From the NCBI GenBank assembly GCA_947501005.1, contig CANMTU010000001.1, forward strand, positions 1,140,501 through 1,204,500: a stretch of 64,000 bases of DNA, in the 5' to 3' direction. How positions within the stretch are numbered: position 1 is the stretch's first letter; each line of letters starts with the position of its first letter. Both the position numbers and the translations under genes were made by a program. The DNA comes from an uncultured Erythrobacter sp. GTDB taxonomy: Bacteria > Pseudomonadota > Alphaproteobacteria > Sphingomonadales > Sphingomonadaceae. Under the pieces are notes generated by a model. That model was not told the origin of the DNA. It did no database searches and saw nothing but the letters and a program-made list of their open reading frames with translations. This document shows, in pieces, positions 1 through 8,756 of this stretch.

Positions 1-1
1 C

Positions 2-2992
2 GGACGAGCATGGATACGCGCCCGAGACCTCGAAAAGACGTTCTACACAGAATATCGGGACTATCGGCAACACCTCTACACCGCGTTGCTGGAGGCTAAC
101 CCCAACTTCCCCGGCACAAGGGGACGGCTTGTCCGGCTGGCGCAAAAGCTGCTGGATCGCAGCATCTTCATTTTCTACTGCGAGGATATGGGCCGGGCCA
201 TCGGCTATCCCCCGCAACTGCTGCGCGACTTCCTGATCAATCGGAGCCGCGATCAATATCTCAGCCAGGACGGCAACGAGATTTGGTCAACGCTGTGCGG
301 CCTTTTCCGGGCGATGAATGACGGCACCGCGTTTGGCGACCATCGCCTCAACCAATTCAATGGTGGCCTTTTTGCACATGATGCTGAGTTGGAAGGGCTG
401 AATGTCCCCAATCGCCTTTTCTGCATCCGCGGACAGGGGCACAACGAGGCGAGCCTGTATCAAAACAAGCTGACGCTGCTTTATCTCTCTGCATCTTACA
501 ATTATGCCGCCGATCTGGCTCAGGGCTCGGGCGCGACCCGTCCCGATGCAGCGGAGCCGGGATCTGCCGAAGCTGCGGCGAATGCTCGAAAGGCTGATCC
601 TGAGACGGCATTGGGTCTCTACACGCTGGGACACATTTTCGAGCAATCGATCACCGAACTGGAAATTCTCGAAGCTGAGGCGGACGGGCGAGTCTCGGTC
701 AACAAGGAAAGCGGGCGCAAGACCAACGGCGTCTACTACACCCCGGAATGGGTCGTGGAACGCATTGTCCGCGAAGCCCTTGGCGGGCGGCTAACCGAGA
801 TAAAGCAGGAATGCGGGTGGACGCTCGATGATTTCGGCGTCGCCACTACCGGCGATGTCGCAGCAATCGACGCTTATCGGGAGCGGCTGCAAGGCGTTCG
901 GGTGCTTGATCCGGCTTGCGGGTCTGGCGCATTCCTGATCACGGCGCTGAAATATCTGCTTACCGAATGGCGTTCCATCCTCGACTTGCGCCGCCGTGTG
1001 TCGGGCGATGCAATGGCACGGGACGAGGACGAGCTGATAAGGGACGTTCTGCGGACCAATCTCTACGGCGTGGACATCAACCCTTCCTCGGTCGAGATTA
1101 CCCAATTGGCGCTGTGGCTGCATACGGCTCGCGGGGACCGTCCGCTCTCGTCGCTCGACGCCCATATACAAGACGGCAACAGTCTGATCGACGGCCATTT
1201 CTGGCTTGGGCAACAGAACCTCGATCTGGACGAAGAGGGCCGGGAGCGCATCAACACATTCGATTGGGCGGAAGCCTTTCCCGAAGCAATGGCGGATGGC
1301 GGGTTCGATGTCGTGTTGGGCAACCCACCCTATGTGAAGCTGCAAAACTTCCGCAGAGCGCACCCGGATATGGCCGACTATCTGCGCAACGGGAGGGCCG
1401 GAACCGCCTTCACCGGCTATCGCAGCGCCCAATCGGGCAATTTCGACCTCTATCTCCCGTTCATCGAAAAGGGCATCGCCCTTCTGAGACCGGGCGGGCG
1501 GCTGGGCTACATCGCGCCAAGCGTTTGGGTGATGAACGAATATGGCGAGAACCTGCGGACCCTGATTGCCGGGCAGCGTTCGCTTTCCCGTTGGCTGGAT
1601 TTTCGGTCGCACCAGATTTTCGAAGAAGCGACGGTTTACACCGCCCTGCAATTCTTCCGTCGCCCCGATCAAGGCGAGCAACCGGAGTTTGTCGAAGTTG
1701 CAGCCGCTCCCGATGGGATCGTTGCCGATGATCCTTGGCAGGGGGATGACGCGCGGCTCCCTTATGGCAACCTGGGCTATGGCGACCGTTGGCTGATGCT
1801 GAGCGGTGCAGAGCGTGAGCTAATTGATCGACTAGATGCATCATGTGATCGCTTAGTGAGCGGCCACCTTACATCCGCAGTTTTTCAAGGTCTAATTACC
1901 AGCGCCGATCCTGTCTATCATCTCCGCCGGATTGCACCGGGACGATATATCAGCCGGGCATCGGATGGGAGCGAAGTCCGGATTGAAGATGCCCTGATGC
2001 ACCCCCTTGTTTCGGGAACCGAGGCAAAGCGATACATCGAACCGGACACCGACACCTACATCCTGTTCCCCTACCAGCGCGCCGGGCAAGCGGTCCGGCT
2101 GATCGACGCCGACCGGCTTGAAAACAACTTCCCCTTGGCGTGGGCCTATCTTCTCAGCCACGAAGTGCGCTTGCGGGCGCGGGAAAATGGCGGGTTCGAT
2201 GACGATCAGTGGTATCGGTTCGGCAGACACCAGAGCCTCGACAGGCAGGATGTTGCGAAGCTTATCGTCCCTCGTCTCGTTGCTGACCTCAAATGTGCGG
2301 TCGATGAAGCAGGTACATATTATCTCGACAATGTGGATGTTGGAGGCGTTGCACCCGCCGAGCGTGTTGACCCCTACTTTCTCGCTGGCGTCCTGAATGC
2401 CCCCGTCGCGCGCTATGTCTTCAAGCGTATCTCAAAGCCTTTCCGTGGGAATTATCTCTCGGCCAACCGCCAGTTTATCGCTCCACTCCCAATTCCCCGC
2501 ACCGATGAAGCGACCCGCAACGCGATAGGGGCAACGGCCCGCGAACTCCAAGCGCTGCACTCGTCCCGCCGGGATACCTTGCGCGACTTGCGGCACAGAT
2601 TGGATGCCAGCCCCGCACAGAACAGGCGGCTCGATTTCATCTTCCCGACATTGCGGACCGCCCGGCAACGGCGTGGAGAAGCGCCGCGTGGAGTGGACGC
2701 TGGCGCATGGGCAACAGCGGCCTATGATGCGGAACTGGAAGAGCGTTACGGTGCGATTGCCAGCGCTCTGCATCCCGAGGTGGCGTTGGAAGCCGTGTTC
2801 GAACGTGGGGAAGTTCGGGTTTTGGCGGACGGCGCGACTATCATCGACGGGATTTTTGTTGATGCGGTAGAAGGTTCATTCATTGCTGCCCAATGGAATG
2901 CCCGCCTCGATAGCTTCACCCCGCCAAGCAACAATCCGGGCCGGTCGCTGGTCAATTTGCTTCGACGGCTGATCGTGACCGACAATCATTAG
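2..2992 (+). CDS. Type IIG-like restriction-modification enzyme, Eco57I/PglX-class adenine methylase (5' partial)
   Basis: The reading frame is open to the window edge, so the gene starts upstream; the first internal start (TTG at 86) leaves 968 residues. The first visible stretch (EKTFYTEYRDYR, then LLDRSIFIFYCEDMG) resembles the helical linker that follows the N-terminal nuclease region in Type IIG enzymes. Next come a methylase entry motif (NGVYYTPEWVV), SAM-binding motif I (DPACGSGAF, about nt 908-934) and the catalytic NPPY of N6-adenine methylases (nt 1322-1333). The last 400 or so residues probably hold the target recognition domain. Whether a PD-(D/E)XK nuclease exists upstream cannot be seen. 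PglX of BREX or a DISARM methylase would look similar; no other gene of those systems is present here. Confidence 0.85.
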   Translation, partial: GRAWIRARDLEKTFYTEYRDYRQHLYTALLEANPNFPGTRGRLVRLAQKLLDRSIFIFYCEDMGRAIGYPPQLLRDFLINRSRDQYLSQDGNEIWSTLCGLFRAMNDGTAFGDHRLNQFNGGLFAHDAELEGLNVPNRLFCIRGQGHNEASLYQNKLTLLYLSASYNYAADLAQGSGATRPDAAEPGSAEAAANARKADPETALGLYTLGHIFEQSITELEILEAEADGRVSVNKESGRKTNGVYYTPEWVVERIVREALGGRLTEIKQECGWTLDDFGVATTGDVAAIDAYRERLQGVRVLDPACGSGAFLITALKYLLTEWRSILDLRRRVSGDAMARDEDELIRDVLRTNLYGVDINPSSVEITQLALWLHTARGDRPLSSLDAHIQDGNSLIDGHFWLGQQNLDLDEEGRERINTFDWAEAFPEAMADGGFDVVLGNPPYVKLQNFRRAHPDMADYLRNGRAGTAFTGYRSAQSGNFDLYLPFIEKGIALLRPGGRLGYIAPSVWVMNEYGENLRTLIAGQRSLSRWLDFRSHQIFEEATVYTALQFFRRPDQGEQPEFVEVAAAPDGIVADDPWQGDDARLPYGNLGYGDRWLMLSGAERELIDRLDASCDRLVSGHLTSAVFQGLITSADPVYHLRRIAPGRYISRASDGSEVRIEDALMHPLVSGTEAKRYIEPDTDTYILFPYQRAGQAVRLIDADRLENNFPLAWAYLLSHEVRLRARENGGFDDDQWYRFGRHQSLDRQDVAKLIVPRLVADLKCAVDEAGTYYLDNVDVGGVAPAERVDPYFLAGVLNAPVARYVFKRISKPFRGNYLSANRQFIAPLPIPRTDEATRNAIGATARELQALHSSRRDTLRDLRHRLDASPAQNRRLDFIFPTLRTARQRRGEAPRGVDAGAWATAAYDAELEERYGAIASALHPEVALEAVFERGEVRVLADGATIIDGIFVDAVEGSFIAAQWNARLDSFTPPSNNPGRSLVNLLRRLIVTDNH

Positions 2993-3039
2993 GCAACCTT
3001 TTTGCTGGAGATGACGACGCCTTCCAGCTTCTTCGCAAT

Positions 3040-5163
3040 ATGGCTCCCGTTGCCCCGGAAGAGGTTTTGCAGCGCGCAGAGGATGAAACGACAGGCACGA
3101 ACGGGGGAGCGATCCTGAACCCCAAATCGCCTTCTCGTTGGCAGTTGACGATGGTGCTGAAGTCGCTGGCATACGAACAAGGATTGTTTGACCGTGCAGC
3201 CAAGCTCTTGGCCAAGTTTGCGGCGGCTGAGGCCCCCGACGAAAACCACAATTCGGCTCGTGGACCCTTTGAAGAACTTTTCCACCTGCATCTGTCCGGC
3301 ACGCAAGCCCCGCCCGATCAGCGAAGAAGGCTGATCCGCGATCTTTATGCGAGCAGCGATCCAAACCTGATCCGCTGCGGCCACGTCGCGTTGCGGGCAC
3401 TGCTACAGTCAGGACATTTTTCGTCCTCATCGAATTTCGATTTTGGTGCCCGTCCGAGGGACTTCGGCTGGCATCCCCCAACCTACGGCGACATCTGGAA
3501 CTGGTACAGCGATGGCATCAGCCTAGCCGTCGAACTAGCCTCAAACCGTGACCTCCGATCGGAAATCCGACGGATTGTTTCTGGAAGTCTGCGGGGCATT
3601 GTCGGAATTGAAGCCTGCCTGACTGCCGTTGAGGCGGCGACGACCGAATTCCTGACAGACGGCGAGTGGATCGACGGTTGGCTCGCTATTCGCGGTGCCA
3701 TTGGGTTTGACGGAAAAGGCTGGCGACCTGAGGTTTTGGAGCGAGTTCGGGCGCTGGAAACGCAGTTGCGTCCGTCTGATCCGCTGAATGTCGCTAGGGC
3801 TTACGTAATGGAAGGCCGTGGCTCAGGCTTCGACCTCATCGACGGAGACGAGGATGACAGCAGCGAACGGGACTATACCGCTGCTTACAGGCGTTTGGAG
3901 CAAAAGGCCGAAGCTATCGGGAAGGATTTTGGCGATCAGAGCGAGCTGCTAATCCCCTTCTTGGGGGAGGCACTTCAATCCAATCATGCACCCCGCGCAT
4001 TTTCATTTGGCGTCGGGTTGGCCCAATCGACAACGCCCCTACGCCATACGTGGCAAACGCTTCGTGAGGCATTCACCGCCGTTCCAAAGGAGGCGCGAAA
4101 CGCAACAATCCTTGGCGGCTTCCTGCACAAGTTGAACGAAACCGACGCGGCGCTCTGTTCGGCGCTTCTAGATGAGATACTAGCCGACCCTGAAATGGCC
4201 CTGCATTTCGTTTATCTCCAGGCACGGACAGAGATGAACGAGGAAGCCGTCGCAAGGTTGAGGAAGGCCATCGCATTCGGTCGCATCCTCTCTTACACCT
4301 TCGGCAATCTTGCTTGCGGAGTCATCGGCCCTGCTCCCCAGCCTGCGCTTGCTGCAATGCTCGATGACTTATGCGGGTTGGAGGGTGGAACGGCGAACGC
4401 GCTCGAAATATTCCATATGGCCGTTTACTGCCGCAAAACTGACGGCCTCGAAGTGGACGGTGTTCTCCTCGACGCCGGGCACCAACTCCTACTACGCACT
4501 GACTACAAAAACACGCACGATGCCAGAGAGCACAGGGTCCAACAGGCAATCAAGTTTTGCTATTCTGGTCCGGGCGGAGAGTCTGGCGCACGCGAGCTAT
4601 GCCGCCTGCTCAAATCGAAGATCGAGGCTGGCGAGATATATGCCTTCCATCTTGATCATGCGTTTGAGGCACTCTTCGAAGTGCAACCCATCGTCGCGCT
4701 GGACGAATTTTTGCTTGGAGCGAATGCGAACGAGGAAGACCCTATCTATGGGGACACTAGCATCAGCAGGCGATCTCCGCTGGAGAAAGTCGATCCCGGC
4801 GTTCTTTGGTCGTGGGCCGATCAAGCCCCGACCGTTCGCTATCCACTGCTGAGCCGGTCACTGAGCGTCTTTGCTACCAAAAATTACGATGACGATGGCT
4901 TGTCTCCGCTGTTCCTTGAGGGCTTGGAAAGGGCACCGGACAAGGCGGCATTCCTAAATAGCAACAAGGCCCGGATGTTGCCGAACGGATGGTCGGGCAA
5001 CCTCTCCATAATTCTGGATAAGCGCCGCGAATATCTCGGCTCGCTCGCTGATCACGCGGACAGCGGCGTTCGATCATGGGTCGCAGAGCAGGTGTCAAAT
5101 CTCAAACAATGGGCCGACCACGAGCGCGGGCGTGAGGCGGAGAGTGAAGAGACTTTCGAATAG
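3040..5163 (+). CDS. Large helical-repeat protein of unknown function, probably 5'-truncated remnant of an NTPase-type defence protein
   Basis: A 707-residue product with no recognisable catalytic motif or membrane segment; mostly helical, repeat-like. From memory, the block FDFGARPRDFGWHPP with the upstream LSGTQAPPDQRRRL resembles the C-terminal halves of much longer (over 1,200 residue) proteins with N-terminal SIR2 or P-loop NTPase domains. No P-loop is present here. The frame stays open upstream of the ATG back to a stop at 2911-2913 and reads family-like there (GDDDAFQLLRN just before the Met), yet contains no ATG, GTG or TTG. No Shine-Dalgarno lies at a good distance from 3040. The front of the gene therefore appears to be lost. 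It lies 47 bases after the methylase gene and 52 bases before the DUF262 gene, all on one strand. Confidence 0.6.
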   Translation: MAPVAPEEVLQRAEDETTGTNGGAILNPKSPSRWQLTMVLKSLAYEQGLFDRAAKLLAKFAAAEAPDENHNSARGPFEELFHLHLSGTQAPPDQRRRLIRDLYASSDPNLIRCGHVALRALLQSGHFSSSSNFDFGARPRDFGWHPPTYGDIWNWYSDGISLAVELASNRDLRSEIRRIVSGSLRGIVGIEACLTAVEAATTEFLTDGEWIDGWLAIRGAIGFDGKGWRPEVLERVRALETQLRPSDPLNVARAYVMEGRGSGFDLIDGDEDDSSERDYTAAYRRLEQKAEAIGKDFGDQSELLIPFLGEALQSNHAPRAFSFGVGLAQSTTPLRHTWQTLREAFTAVPKEARNATILGGFLHKLNETDAALCSALLDEILADPEMALHFVYLQARTEMNEEAVARLRKAIAFGRILSYTFGNLACGVIGPAPQPALAAMLDDLCGLEGGTANALEIFHMAVYCRKTDGLEVDGVLLDAGHQLLLRTDYKNTHDAREHRVQQAIKFCYSGPGGESGARELCRLLKSKIEAGEIYAFHLDHAFEALFEVQPIVALDEFLLGANANEEDPIYGDTSISRRSPLEKVDPGVLWSWADQAPTVRYPLLSRSLSVFATKNYDDDGLSPLFLEGLERAPDKAAFLNSNKARMLPNGWSGNLSIILDKRREYLGSLADHADSGVRSWVAEQVSNLKQWADHERGREAESEETFE

Positions 5164-5215
5164 GGTTTTGTCCGCTGCCTTCGGGCGCGATTGAAATGGA
5201 ATGAGGGGGTAGGAG

Positions 5216-7327
5216 GTGAAGCCGTTTACACGATCCATCGTCGATCTTTTCGACGGCAAGAAGCGATACCTTATCCCCCTCTACCAGCGGCAATATGCTT
5301 GGCCGGTTTCCCAGCTTGAATTGCTGTGGGAGGACATCGAGCGGGCCGTTGACCGGCTCAACACGGATCGGACCACGCTAACCCCGCATTTCATGGGCGC
5401 GATAGTGATCAGCCAGGTCAAGACCTTTGGCAAGCAGGTCCAGGCTTACGAGATTATCGACGGCCAGCAGCGACTCACGACGTTCCAAATCCTGCTATCG
5501 GCATTGCGGGATGTGGCGAACGAATTTGGATCGGCCTACGGCGCTGAAATTCAGGACTATCTGTTGAACAGCGGGGTGATGGAAACCCCGGCGGTCGAAC
5601 GCTACAAGCTGTGGCCTTCGCTAACTGATCGTCGCGCGTTTGTTGCACTGATCGACCCTTCCGCCGATCCCTCAGAGATCGAAGCGGCTGTAATTGACGA
5701 AGCCAGCTATGTGCGCCGCTCGACCGAGGCACACGCCTACTTCCTCCAGAAAGTCCGCACCCATGTTTCACCCGATGGCGGAGAATATGAGGAGCATCGG
5801 TTAGAGCGACTATTCGAGGCGCTGAAAGAAGGGCTGGCGGTTGTCTCCATCGAACTGGAGGGTGGCGACGATCCGCAGACGATCTTTGAGACGTTGAACA
5901 GCCGAGGCGCGGAACTGACTCCCGGCGACCTCATGCGGAACTTCATTTTTCAGCGGGCAAAGGGCTTGGGCCAGTCTGCCGGTTCGCTCAATATCGACAA
6001 GCTGTATGCGACCCATTGGCTCCCGCTGGACGGGTCGTTCTGGCAGACGCCAGCCTCTAGGGGGCGCTTGTTCCGTCCTCGTTTGGTTTGGATGTTGACG
6101 GACCATCTGTCGATGCATTTGGCTGACTTGGTTTCCGTTGACGGCCTGTTCGATACCTACCGGAAGTGGGTTCTCACGCAACAGCCCTTCACCTCCACCG
6201 AGGACGAGTTGAAGGCGATTTCGGCAACGGCGGCTATCGAGCGTCGGCTTTTCGAGCAATCGAAGGACGATGCCTTGGGCCAGTTTGGCCGATTTGCCGA
6301 AGCCTTCGACGTTTCAACAGCCATGCCTCTGGTGATCTATCTCGCCAACGCGATCAGCGACGAGAAGGCGCTTGCCGATGCGCTGGCATCCCTGAAAAGC
6401 TACATCCTTCGGCGGGACGTGTGCGGGCTGACAACCAAGAACTACAATCGGTTCTTCGTCGGCACGATCCAATGGCTACGGAAGGCAGAGGGCGACATCG
6501 CTGCAAACGTGCGGGAGTATCTCTCAGGGCGGACATCGGACATTGATCGTTGGCCCGACGACGCGGAATTTCGGAACGGTTGGCTCGGGCGGGATCAATA
6601 CAAGAATGCGAGGCAGCCGCGCTTGCGCTTGATTTTCGAGGGCATCGAACAGCGCAAACGGTCTCTATTGAATGAGGACATCGAAATTCGCTCTGCGCTG
6701 ACCATCGAGCATATCATGCCGCAGTCGTGGCGCGACAACTGGCCAGTTCCTGAGGTGGAAGGGGAAATCGGCATTTTGGGCGCGGTGGATACCGAGATCG
6801 CCCGGAGCATGTGCATCAACAAGATGGGCAACCTGACCCTACTGACGCATAGTCTCAATGCGTCGGTATCCAACGGACCATTCGACGTGAAAATGCCTGC
6901 CGTTCGCGCCCACTCGTCGCTTGCCCTCAATCGGGAGTTGGGCGCCTATCAGAATTGGGATGAAGAAGCCGTCGCGGAACGCGGGTTGGCTCTCTTTGAA
7001 GTTGCCCGTTCGGTTTGGGGTGCGCCTGAAAGGCCTGAAGGCACCATTCCAGCAGGATCGGGCAGTGGAACCGCTTATGTCGCTGGCCTGCCTCCCATCG
7101 GAACTGAATGCAGCTTCCGGTATGCTGACAAGATTTGGAACGGCGTTATCGTTGGAGGCGGAATGCAGATTGAGGGATTGGACGGGCTGGCCTCCACCTT
7201 CACGGCAGCCTCGCGGATGGTGACGGGCACGAGTCGAAACGGATGGATGGATTGGCGGCTTCGCATTCCCGGAACCCCAGCCGACTTGCTCGCTGATGAA
7301 TGGAGGCAAAAGTCATCTGCAGCGTGA
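5216..7327 (+). CDS. DUF262-DUF1524 family nuclease (GmrSD/SspE-like) with RAMA-like C-terminal domain
   Basis: The N-terminal DUF262 domain (about residues 1-330) has the family signatures IPLYQRQYAW and IIDGQQRLTTFQ, typical of the NTP-dependent GmrS-type module. A DUF1524 HNH-like nuclease follows (IEHIMPQSW near nt 6704-6730, then GNLTLLTHSLNASVSN). The last 80 or so residues (SFRYADKIWNGVIV to TSRNGWMDW) resemble the RAMA domain linked to adenine-methylase systems. Relatives restrict modified or phosphorothioated phage DNA. The start is GTG, fixed by a stop only two codons upstream (5210-5212), with G-rich GAGGGGG at 5203-5209 as ribosome site. Next to the adenine methylase, it could act as a partner that reads the methyl mark; that is inference. 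Confidence 0.82.
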   Translation: MKPFTRSIVDLFDGKKRYLIPLYQRQYAWPVSQLELLWEDIERAVDRLNTDRTTLTPHFMGAIVISQVKTFGKQVQAYEIIDGQQRLTTFQILLSALRDVANEFGSAYGAEIQDYLLNSGVMETPAVERYKLWPSLTDRRAFVALIDPSADPSEIEAAVIDEASYVRRSTEAHAYFLQKVRTHVSPDGGEYEEHRLERLFEALKEGLAVVSIELEGGDDPQTIFETLNSRGAELTPGDLMRNFIFQRAKGLGQSAGSLNIDKLYATHWLPLDGSFWQTPASRGRLFRPRLVWMLTDHLSMHLADLVSVDGLFDTYRKWVLTQQPFTSTEDELKAISATAAIERRLFEQSKDDALGQFGRFAEAFDVSTAMPLVIYLANAISDEKALADALASLKSYILRRDVCGLTTKNYNRFFVGTIQWLRKAEGDIAANVREYLSGRTSDIDRWPDDAEFRNGWLGRDQYKNARQPRLRLIFEGIEQRKRSLLNEDIEIRSALTIEHIMPQSWRDNWPVPEVEGEIGILGAVDTEIARSMCINKMGNLTLLTHSLNASVSNGPFDVKMPAVRAHSSLALNRELGAYQNWDEEAVAERGLALFEVARSVWGAPERPEGTIPAGSGSGTAYVAGLPPIGTECSFRYADKIWNGVIVGGGMQIEGLDGLASTFTAASRMVTGTSRNGWMDWRLRIPGTPADLLADEWRQKSSAA

Positions 7328-7433
7328 CTCTGCGTGCCAAGTACTACGGGGAGGCTGGCTGACATAATCTGATGCCCCAATGGGACCACGCCGGAAGGCG
7401 TAACTCGCAACTCACATCTAAGTCATTGAAAAA

Positions 7434-7510
<77 letters not shown>

Positions 7511-7634
7511 CGAGCGGATTTGCCGCTGGCGCCGAAGCGCCCCCCGAATCGGGGAAGCGCTCATATAGCCGGTGTCGCGCGGATGAAAAGGGGGCGTGCG
7601 CGCTATTTTCGGCGCCATCGCACACGAACGCACA

Positions 7635-8756
7635 TCAGTGAGTGAAACGGCCGCTGCGCGCGGATTTGCGGGTCCAGCGATCGACCATCATCAGCACGCC
7701 GATGCAGATCATGTTGGTCATCATCGAGCTGCCGCCGTGGCTCATGAAGGGCAGCGGGATGCCGACGACCGGCGCAAGGCCCATGACCATCATCAGATTG
7801 ATTGCGATGAAGAAGAAGATCGTCGCCGTCATCCCGGCGGCAAGCAGCTTTGCGAACCGGTCGTCGCTCGCCCGCGCGATCATGGTGCCGCGATACAGGA
7901 TCAGAGCGAAAGCCAGAATCGTGAACAAGCCGCCCATCAGGCCCCATTCCTCGGCCATGGTGGCGAACACGAAATCGGTGTGCGGTTCGGGCAGGTAGTT
8001 GAGGTGGCTCTGCGATCCCTCGTTGAACCCCTTGCCGAACACGCCGCCCGAACCGATCGCGATTTTCGACTGAGTAATCTGATAGCCTTCGCCCAGCGGA
8101 TCGCTTTCCGGATCGAGGAAGGTCGTCACCCGGTCCTGCTGGTATGGTTGCAGGGCGAAGAAGAAGGCGACCGGGATGGCCGCCGCGCCCGCCAGTGCCG
8201 CCCCCACGAACCAGCGCAGCGGCAGGCCGGCGAAGAACATCACCAACCCGCCGCCGAAGGCGATGGCGAGCGAGGTGCCGAGGTCCGGCTGCAGCAGGAC
8301 GAACGCCATCGGCAAGGCGATGATGATGCCGGCGGGGATCAACGCCCGCCAGGTCGGCACCATGCCGATGGGCAGGCTGTCGTAATAGCGCGCGAGGGCA
8401 ACAACGACGGCGGGTTTCATCAGTTCGGACGGCTGGATGCGGATCGGCCCGATTTCGAGCCAGCGCTGGCTGCCGCCGCCGATCTGCCCCGCCAGCTCGA
8501 CCGCCACCAGCAACAACAGGATGACGACATAGGAGGGGTAGGCGAGGAAGGTGACCCAGCTTCGCTTGATCCGGCTGATGACGACCGCCATCGTGAAGAA
8601 GATTGCGAACCGCAGCAGGTGCGAGCTCGCATAGGGAGACAGCGATCCGCCGCCGGCGGAATACAGCACCAGGCCGCCGAAGATGATCAGCGCGAAGAGC
8701 GGAAAAAGAAGTTGCCAGGGCTGCCGCGCGATGGGCGCCGGAACGATGCCGCTCAC
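7635..8756 (-). CDS. rodA: Rod shape-determining protein RodA, SEDS peptidoglycan glycosyltransferase
   Basis: A 373-residue polytopic membrane protein of the SEDS family, which polymerises glycan strands of peptidoglycan during cell elongation with PBP2 (the preceding gene). Seen: many hydrophobic segments, the GTSLAIAFGGG and GFNEGSQSHLNYLPEPHTDF blocks, and the C-terminal VVGIPLPFMSHGGSSMM signature. The start is GTG, overlapping the mrdA stop codon as GTGA (4 bases), so the two are translationally coupled. The length is normal for the family. It is the last gene of the mreB-mreC-mreD-mrdA-rodA block. Confidence 0.97.
   Translation of the reverse strand: MSGIVPAPIARQPWQLLFPLFALIIFGGLVLYSAGGGSLSPYASSHLLRFAIFFTMAVVISRIKRSWVTFLAYPSYVVILLLLVAVELAGQIGGGSQRWLEIGPIRIQPSELMKPAVVVALARYYDSLPIGMVPTWRALIPAGIIIALPMAFVLLQPDLGTSLAIAFGGGLVMFFAGLPLRWFVGAALAGAAAIPVAFFFALQPYQQDRVTTFLDPESDPLGEGYQITQSKIAIGSGGVFGKGFNEGSQSHLNYLPEPHTDFVFATMAEEWGLMGGLFTILAFALILYRGTMIARASDDRFAKLLAAGMTATIFFFIAINLMMVMGLAPVVGIPLPFMSHGGSSMMTNMICIGVLMMVDRWTRKSARSGRFTH

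Follow-up and report, generated by a model that had tools for sequence, protein, structure and literature searches.

A clipped STAND-like immune gene between type IIG and GmrSD-type restriction genes at the end of a tRNA-Lys island in an uncultured Erythrobacter sp.

The island and its right-end genes

The window (the whole 64,000-nucleotide stretch analysed, G000:C1:1140501-1204500) belongs to a 3.12-Mb genome in six contigs, with the locus on a contig of 2.97 Mb. The ORF listing of the window begins with three co-directional reading frames on the forward strand, 1-2992 (gene 1, open at the window edge), 3040-5163 (gene 2) and 5216-7327 (gene 3), separated by 47 bases between genes 1 and 2 and by 52 bases between genes 2 and 3. 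G+C content was 0.57-0.59 over window positions 1-8000 as against 0.62-0.70 in the remaining window, which agrees with the low-G+C island block on one strand described in the initial annotation.

The three genes lie at the right-hand end of a roughly 17.6-kb island inserted at a tRNA-Lys gene, and the island as a whole has a G+C content of about 0.55-0.60 compared with 0.62-0.70 for window DNA outside it. The integration target is a tRNA-Lys(CTT) gene at 7434..7509 on the reverse strand, identified by a tRNA call and by its occurrence together with the right flank in related genomes. It is overlapped by an exact 49-bp direct repeat (7430..7478), the right attachment site of the island, whose other copy lies 17,581 bases upstream (L002:7849-7897). 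Towards its other end the island encodes, by Pfam, a tyrosine integrase (L002:9176-10330) that includes an arm-binding domain, and after it come a TacA-like antitoxin, a GNAT protein, a primase of the RepB type and an AAA protein. A search of 26 genomes of the genus for the tRNA-Lys gene and its right flank, where a gene looks rodA-like by eye, gave a match in all 26, and in 12 of these the match formed a single block spanning the tRNA. The tRNA-Lys locus is a core site into which the island has inserted. Near-identical extra copies of the tRNA-Lys end, about 45-60 bases long, were seen in genus relatives (G022 C8, C11, C12 and C18; G018 C21; G001 C1; G027 C1), as expected if several islands share the attachment site.

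Gene 1 (window part 1..2992, forward strand) starts 713 bases upstream of the window, and its full product has 1,234 residues. It matched the PADLOC profile PDLC03629 (REase_MTase_IIG) at 1252 bits over profile positions 2-1130 of 1182, with the profile extending 52 positions past the end of the match. In Pfam it matched Eco57I (E 6e-41), MmeI_Mtase and N6_Mtase, Eco57I and N6_Mtase far over their curated cut-offs, as well as MmeI_hel and TaqI_C below threshold. Its likeness to the type IIG enzymes of the Eco57I/MmeI kind lies in a single chain that combines a putative nuclease motif in the N-terminal EFK region, kept in all three sequences aligned (gene 1 and two full-length relatives), the N6-adenine methylase motifs DPACGSGAF and NPPY, and a target-recognition region with a weak likeness to TaqI. 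These domains place gene 1 among the type IIG restriction-modification enzymes, with nuclease and adenine methylase in one polypeptide; the methylase motifs and domains named in the initial annotation are present, but the gene is not a lone adenine methylase, the window edge having cut a larger enzyme.

Only two full-length relatives of gene 1 were found, a Methylocystis rosea plasmid protein (1,271 aa, 50.8% identity) and a protein of genome G503 (1,283 aa, 53-55%). Because both continue for 49 residues past the last aligned gene 1 position (1,222 of 1,271 and 1,234 of 1,283), with LYxLTxxExRLIE as their common C-terminal ending, we regard gene 1 as clipped at its C-terminus, and herein it differs from its type IIG relatives. 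A complete C-terminus is no strict definition of the type IIG family, and the tail, seen in two full-length relatives, may not be essential; the clipped enzyme is presumed to be active. A search of IMG/VR gave no pattern match for gene 1. On the Methylocystis rosea plasmid, genes for multiubiquitin, E2, ThiF and AbiV adjoin the full-length relative (L019:559-5936).

Gene 3 (5216..7327, forward strand; 703 aa) was assigned by Pfam and alignment as an intact DUF262-DUF1524 (GmrSD-type) protein. The domains GmrSD_N (DUF262, E 4e-36) and GmrSD_C (DUF1524, E 9e-27) scored far over their curated cut-offs, and the motifs DGQQR and EHIMPQ were invariant in nine of nine aligned gene 3 sequences, the longer IEHIMPQ in eight, so that the DUF262/DUF1524 motifs reported earlier were well founded. 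The RAMA-type tail reported with them fared less well: at a threshold of E 1, RAMA was matched in three of the nine tails (best E 4.6e-4) and DUF4357 in all nine (best E 6.3e-6), and the tail of the window protein itself matched only DUF4357, at E 0.011 and under the curated cut-off. Among the PADLOC matches listed, gene 3 scored 306 bits with Orf5 and 267 with mREase_IV versus 65 for the best SspE. Solved relatives found by sequence include the DUF262 protein 9jfl (E 8e-16) and SspE, and one weak partial match was found in IMG/VR. GmrSD proteins with DUF4357 and a restriction-gene neighbourhood are already described in the available text of PMC4619093, and gene 3 is by its domains a GmrSD/type IV protein of this published architecture. 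Like GmrSD and BrxU, it joins DUF262 and the His-Me finger domain DUF1524 within a single polypeptide and has both motifs, DGQQR and EHIMPQ; it differs in its weakly DUF4357/RAMA-like C-terminal domain. GmrSD enzymes cleave modified DNA in an NTP-dependent manner, an activity that is putative for gene 3.

The initial annotation had set the cluster apart from BREX, DISARM, Ssp and GmrSD. In BREX and DISARM the methylase is accompanied by core genes (PglZ, BrxC or DrmA/B), and Ssp consists of SspBCD with SspE. The PADLOC scan covered seven island proteins upstream of gene 1, leaving a few short island ORFs outside it, and returned no matches, and Pfam showed an integrase and a GNAT protein. BREX and DISARM were therefore rejected for want of partner genes among the proteins scanned. 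Ssp was rejected on the preference of gene 3 for Orf5/mREase_IV over SspE and on the absence of PADLOC matches in the same seven proteins. PD-Lambda-4 comprises an A and a B protein; no PD-Lambda-4_B was found among 25 of the 37 matches of gene 3, among all 17 matches of the gene 3 part 5966-7324, or in the seven island proteins scanned.

The middle gene and its junction with gene 1

Gene 2 (3040..5163, forward strand) is a 707-codon remnant corresponding, by profile, homologue and model, to the C-terminal alpha-solenoid of an Avs-like STAND protein. It matched PADLOC PD-Lambda-4_A at E 4e-127 but only over profile positions 561-1282 of 1283, and the protein had no Pfam match at E 1 and no NCBIfam match. 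It represents the C-terminal 707 residues of a protein of about 1,265, with the nuclease and NTPase half absent; the "truncated NTPase-like" gene of the initial annotation is truncated as stated, but the NTPase is the part that is missing. Two relatives were found in a scan of genome contigs, in Sphingobium sufflavum (76%) and Novosphingobium (39%). The Sphingobium homologue (L006:7276-11127) has 1,283 codons in one frame and matched PD-Lambda-4_A over positions 2-1283 with 1161 bits, and a gene 3 homologue starts 55 bases after it; the Novosphingobium relative is split over two frames. At several loci the relatives are uninterrupted reading frames over their full length, about 1,260-1,305 aa.

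Structure prediction, suggested in the initial annotation as a check on the middle protein, gave an almost all-helical solenoid for the retained 707 residues (pLDDT 83.9), and Foldseek returned many generic HEAT-type solenoids (importin 13, CAND1) with TM no higher than 0.40 among the matches listed. These fold matches point to a solenoid and carry no indication of function. For the missing half, Q76, K78 and the Walker A motif were invariant and DGGxD nearly invariant in 16 aligned relatives, and QxK with DGGxD can be read as a putative PD-(D/E)XK-like nuclease and Walker A as a putative P-loop. An AlphaFold2 model of residues 19-600 of the Sphingobium protein (8 alignment rows, mean pLDDT 82.4) had as its best PDB match Avs4 bound to phage portal (8dgf, E 2.7e-7, with a query-normalised TM of only 0.27), and NOD2 and AVAST5 were also among the matches. 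A second fold comparison, spanning mainly residues 180-543 and barely covering the nuclease region, gave NRC4 at Z 11.8 (rmsd 8.5, 274 aligned) followed at Z 11.0-11.3 by CED-4, NLRC4, Apaf-1 and a STAND-TPR protein, with clamp loaders scoring as high. A PDB sequence search with an intact relative yielded nothing useful. PD-lambda-4 is grouped under P-loop NTPase in the available text of PMC10952713, and the passages on it in the main text of PMC9519451 describe no domains.

Based on the motifs and the model matches to Avs4 and STAND ATPases, we concluded that the gene 2 family is STAND-like with a probable nuclease effector. Alignment and model place effector, STAND NTPase and C-terminal sensor regions in the intact Sphingobium relative, which by analogy with Avs4 would sense a phage protein via its solenoid and trigger its own nuclease through the STAND ATPase. 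Gene 2 is like the Avs proteins and PD-Lambda-4_A in its homology to the C-terminal, presumed sensor half and in having Avs4 as the best PDB match for the model of its missing half; it differs in that only this C-terminal part is present in the window, the effector and STAND NTPase of the one-chain Avs architecture being absent. With effector and ATPase gone, the remnant should be inert. There is a very slight chance that the clipped solenoid continues to be expressed and senses phage on its own, controlling the adjacent DUF262-DUF1524 nuclease; if so, an NLR-type sensor that had lost its own nuclease and ATPase would have been coupled anew to a GmrSD effector.

The position at which homology to the intact copy begins bears on how both genes came to be shortened. 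DNA homology between the window and the Sphingobium locus starts at window position 2987 (blastn), identity per 10 bases rises from 1-5 before 2990 to mostly 7-9 beyond it, and the stop codon of gene 1 occupies 2990-2992. In tblastn, residue 559 of the Sphingobium protein falls at window 2989, and the homology of gene 2 extends in frame 5' of its first ATG (2989..3039, forward strand). Because homology to the intact copy starts at the gene 1 stop, we infer that one deletion, with its probable junction at 2987..2990, clipped genes 1 and 2 together. Such a deletion would have removed roughly the final 49 codons of gene 1 together with the spacer and some 557 codons from the start of an ORF of the Sphingobium type. 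Gene 1 would then have been joined at its end to gene 2 at codon ~558, and both truncations would be accounted for. The junction comes from assembled sequence and its breakpoint lies at a stop codon, as might be the case if it were an assembly artefact and both genes were intact in the real genome; against this, the locus lies within the 2.97-Mb contig of a six-contig assembly and no second copy of gene 2 was found elsewhere in the source genome, and we consider an artefact very unlikely.

The shortened gene 2 with this junction was seen only here among the genomes and loci searched. The middle protein was matched in one of 99 near genomes, the source genome itself; the full Sphingobium protein was matched in 10 of 396 genomes of the order, and of these ten, three gave short marginal matches and one was the source genome. 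A C-terminal profile at 1e-20 matched 8 of 337 genomes of the class, including the source genome, and 38 of 72,556 plasmid records were matched. Relatives of the full protein were found in two IMG/VR contigs, one in a single frame and one split. With 0 matches in 50,697 phage records, a phage origin of gene 2 was rejected, as was a stand-alone short family, since homology runs 5' of the window gene 2 start at those examined loci that include the upstream sequence.

The frame was single over most of the Sphingobium protein in 11 loci (L006, L020, L023, L071, L072, L073, L079, L082, L083, L084, L125) and split with no N nearby in six (L007, L074, L077, L078, L080, L091). Two more (L094, L126) were split beside N runs or single Ns, where assembly effects are possible, L081 and L085 could be aligned from residue 186 onwards only, and L075 and L076 were distant and partial; cut or partial loci (L089, L090, L092, L093, L095, L096, L097) were left out of the frame counts. 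The breaks in eight disrupted relatives fell, in residues of the Sphingobium ORF, near 75-86, 248, 319, 553, 616, 832, 835-893 and 559-604, and this scatter with no common boundary led us to reject gene 2 as half of a naturally split gene. The break in Rhizobium beringeri (553, with an annotated C-terminal CDS of 739 codons) is close to that of the window gene (557), but with an overlap of about 260 bases between the two frames it looks like a frameshift. The scattered split frames suggest frequent loss of the STAND gene, or in some relatives sequencing error, which may account for part of them. Two STAND relatives (L073:3787-9653 and L074:6640-11336) carry about 300 additional N-terminal residues, with a gene of 382-386 aa upstream that weakly matches PDC-M03A.

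Association of the three genes

The initial annotation proposed a new three-gene defence system in which a methylase marks host DNA and the DUF262-DUF1524 nuclease reads the mark, and in such a system the short gene 2 could serve as a dedicated sensor or adaptor. The tight same-strand spacing (47 and 52 bases), the open frame of 707 codons and the lack of rate acceleration in gene 2 are in keeping with this idea. Unique amino-acid changes in the window gene 2 versus the Sphingobium copy numbered 24 versus 22 and 20 versus 29 with two outgroups, so that either the truncation happened recently or constraint on the fragment persists. Association was assessed at 31 gene 3 loci, comprising the Sphingobium locus, 28 drawn from the 44 of 396 genomes that matched (the source genome among the 44) and two plasmid loci. 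A gene 1-like gene lay in the flank of three (L070, L088, L021), the gene 2 family occurred in one (L006), and both partners in none; methylases of any kind were near gene 3 relatives in six, three of them (L065, L067, L069) by motif only, a frequency that speaks in favour of the initial annotation. These counts are lower bounds, because contig ends cut several flanks. Similarly, relatives of gene 1 or gene 3 were absent from the flanks of gene 2 loci in two sets (0/6 and 0/8, with L071 and L072 in both), and relatives of gene 2 or gene 3 from both loci of full-length gene 1 relatives.

The absence of all three genes together from the sampled loci, the restriction of the short gene 2 and its junction to this locus, and the putative nuclease motif that the clipped gene 1 carries itself all argue against the three-gene proposal, which we rejected as a single system; that the cluster nevertheless functions in this way is most improbable. 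A lack of co-occurrence in other genomes, named in the initial annotation as refuting its proposal, was thus what these samples showed. The mark-and-read model is likewise not supported, gene 1 being an enzyme with its own nuclease motif and gene 2 a clipped gene.

Two other loci merit mention in their own right. In a genome of the same genus (L088:3256-8063, G043:C1), an MmeI-type IIG gene (966 aa) is followed after 17 bases by a DUF262-DUF1524 gene with 30% identity to gene 3, and judged by family this pair is a tighter form of the methylase-plus-reader idea. At L070:7462-17999 (G344:C3), one strand carries in succession genes for a helicase of the HKD/SNF2 type, a IIG-like methylase of the Eco57I type (1,344 aa), an AAA protein with a weak match to mads_3, an unknown protein of 185 aa and a relative of gene 3 (64%), which may together form a multi-gene restriction system.

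The order of genes 2 and 3, common to the Sphingobium locus and the window with a spacing of 52-55 bases, raises the question of whether they derive from a two-gene unit of STAND sensor-nuclease and GmrSD nuclease that is intact in Sphingobium and disabled here. Relatives of gene 2 elsewhere, however, had no gene 3 in their flanks at any of the loci in either set, and gene 3 occurred without gene 2 in 30 of 31 loci. Divergence from the Sphingobium locus is also unequal, with 70.5% DNA and 75.7% protein identity for gene 2 (pS 0.76, saturated; pN 0.146) in contrast to 90.5% and 94.2% for gene 3 (dS 0.39, dN/dS 0.07), and the two genes thus have separate histories despite their common order. We consider the two-gene unit improbable, though less so than the other alternatives. 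Identity to the Sphingobium locus changes from about 70% to about 90% or more near the start codon of gene 3 (window 5163-5216 versus L006:11127-11183), which has the appearance of a mosaic boundary between adjacent defence genes.

Separate defence modules

Based on these data, we consider it very likely that the locus holds separate defence modules, a type IIG and a type IV module acting independently with the remnant of gene 2 between them, and not one system. Among the observations contrary to this reading are that the remnant shows neither a stop or frameshift nor any rate acceleration, and that 3 of the 31 gene 3 loci have a type IIG-like gene close by. Gene 1 would methylate adenine at its own recognition site and cut DNA without the mark, gene 3 would cut DNA carrying modified bases, and the two would work in parallel and complement each other; the substrate preferences and activities assigned to both follow from their families. 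Modules against unmodified and modified DNA stand side by side in the defence island with BREX and BrxU described in the available text of PMC8565348, and BREX and BrxU are reported to complement each other in that of PMC10952713. The present locus would be similar, by family, in placing an unmodified-DNA module beside a modified-DNA module, and differs in that its first module is type IIG, with no BREX gene among the island proteins scanned.

In all likelihood, then, the locus is an ordinary defence island in which one immune gene has been clipped. The defence-island reading of the initial annotation is right, and its assignment of both flanking genes to restriction families accords with the type IIG domains of gene 1 and the GmrSD domains of gene 3. 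One dubious candidate is thereby struck from the list of new defence systems and the puzzling middle gene is accounted for, the locus being a record of a STAND immune gene dismantled within a defence island. The disrupted frames in several relatives would be consistent with a gene whose maintenance is costly, and the loose but recurrent neighbourhood of DUF262-DUF1524 and type IIG genes offers a modest lead towards paired restriction of unmodified and modified DNA.
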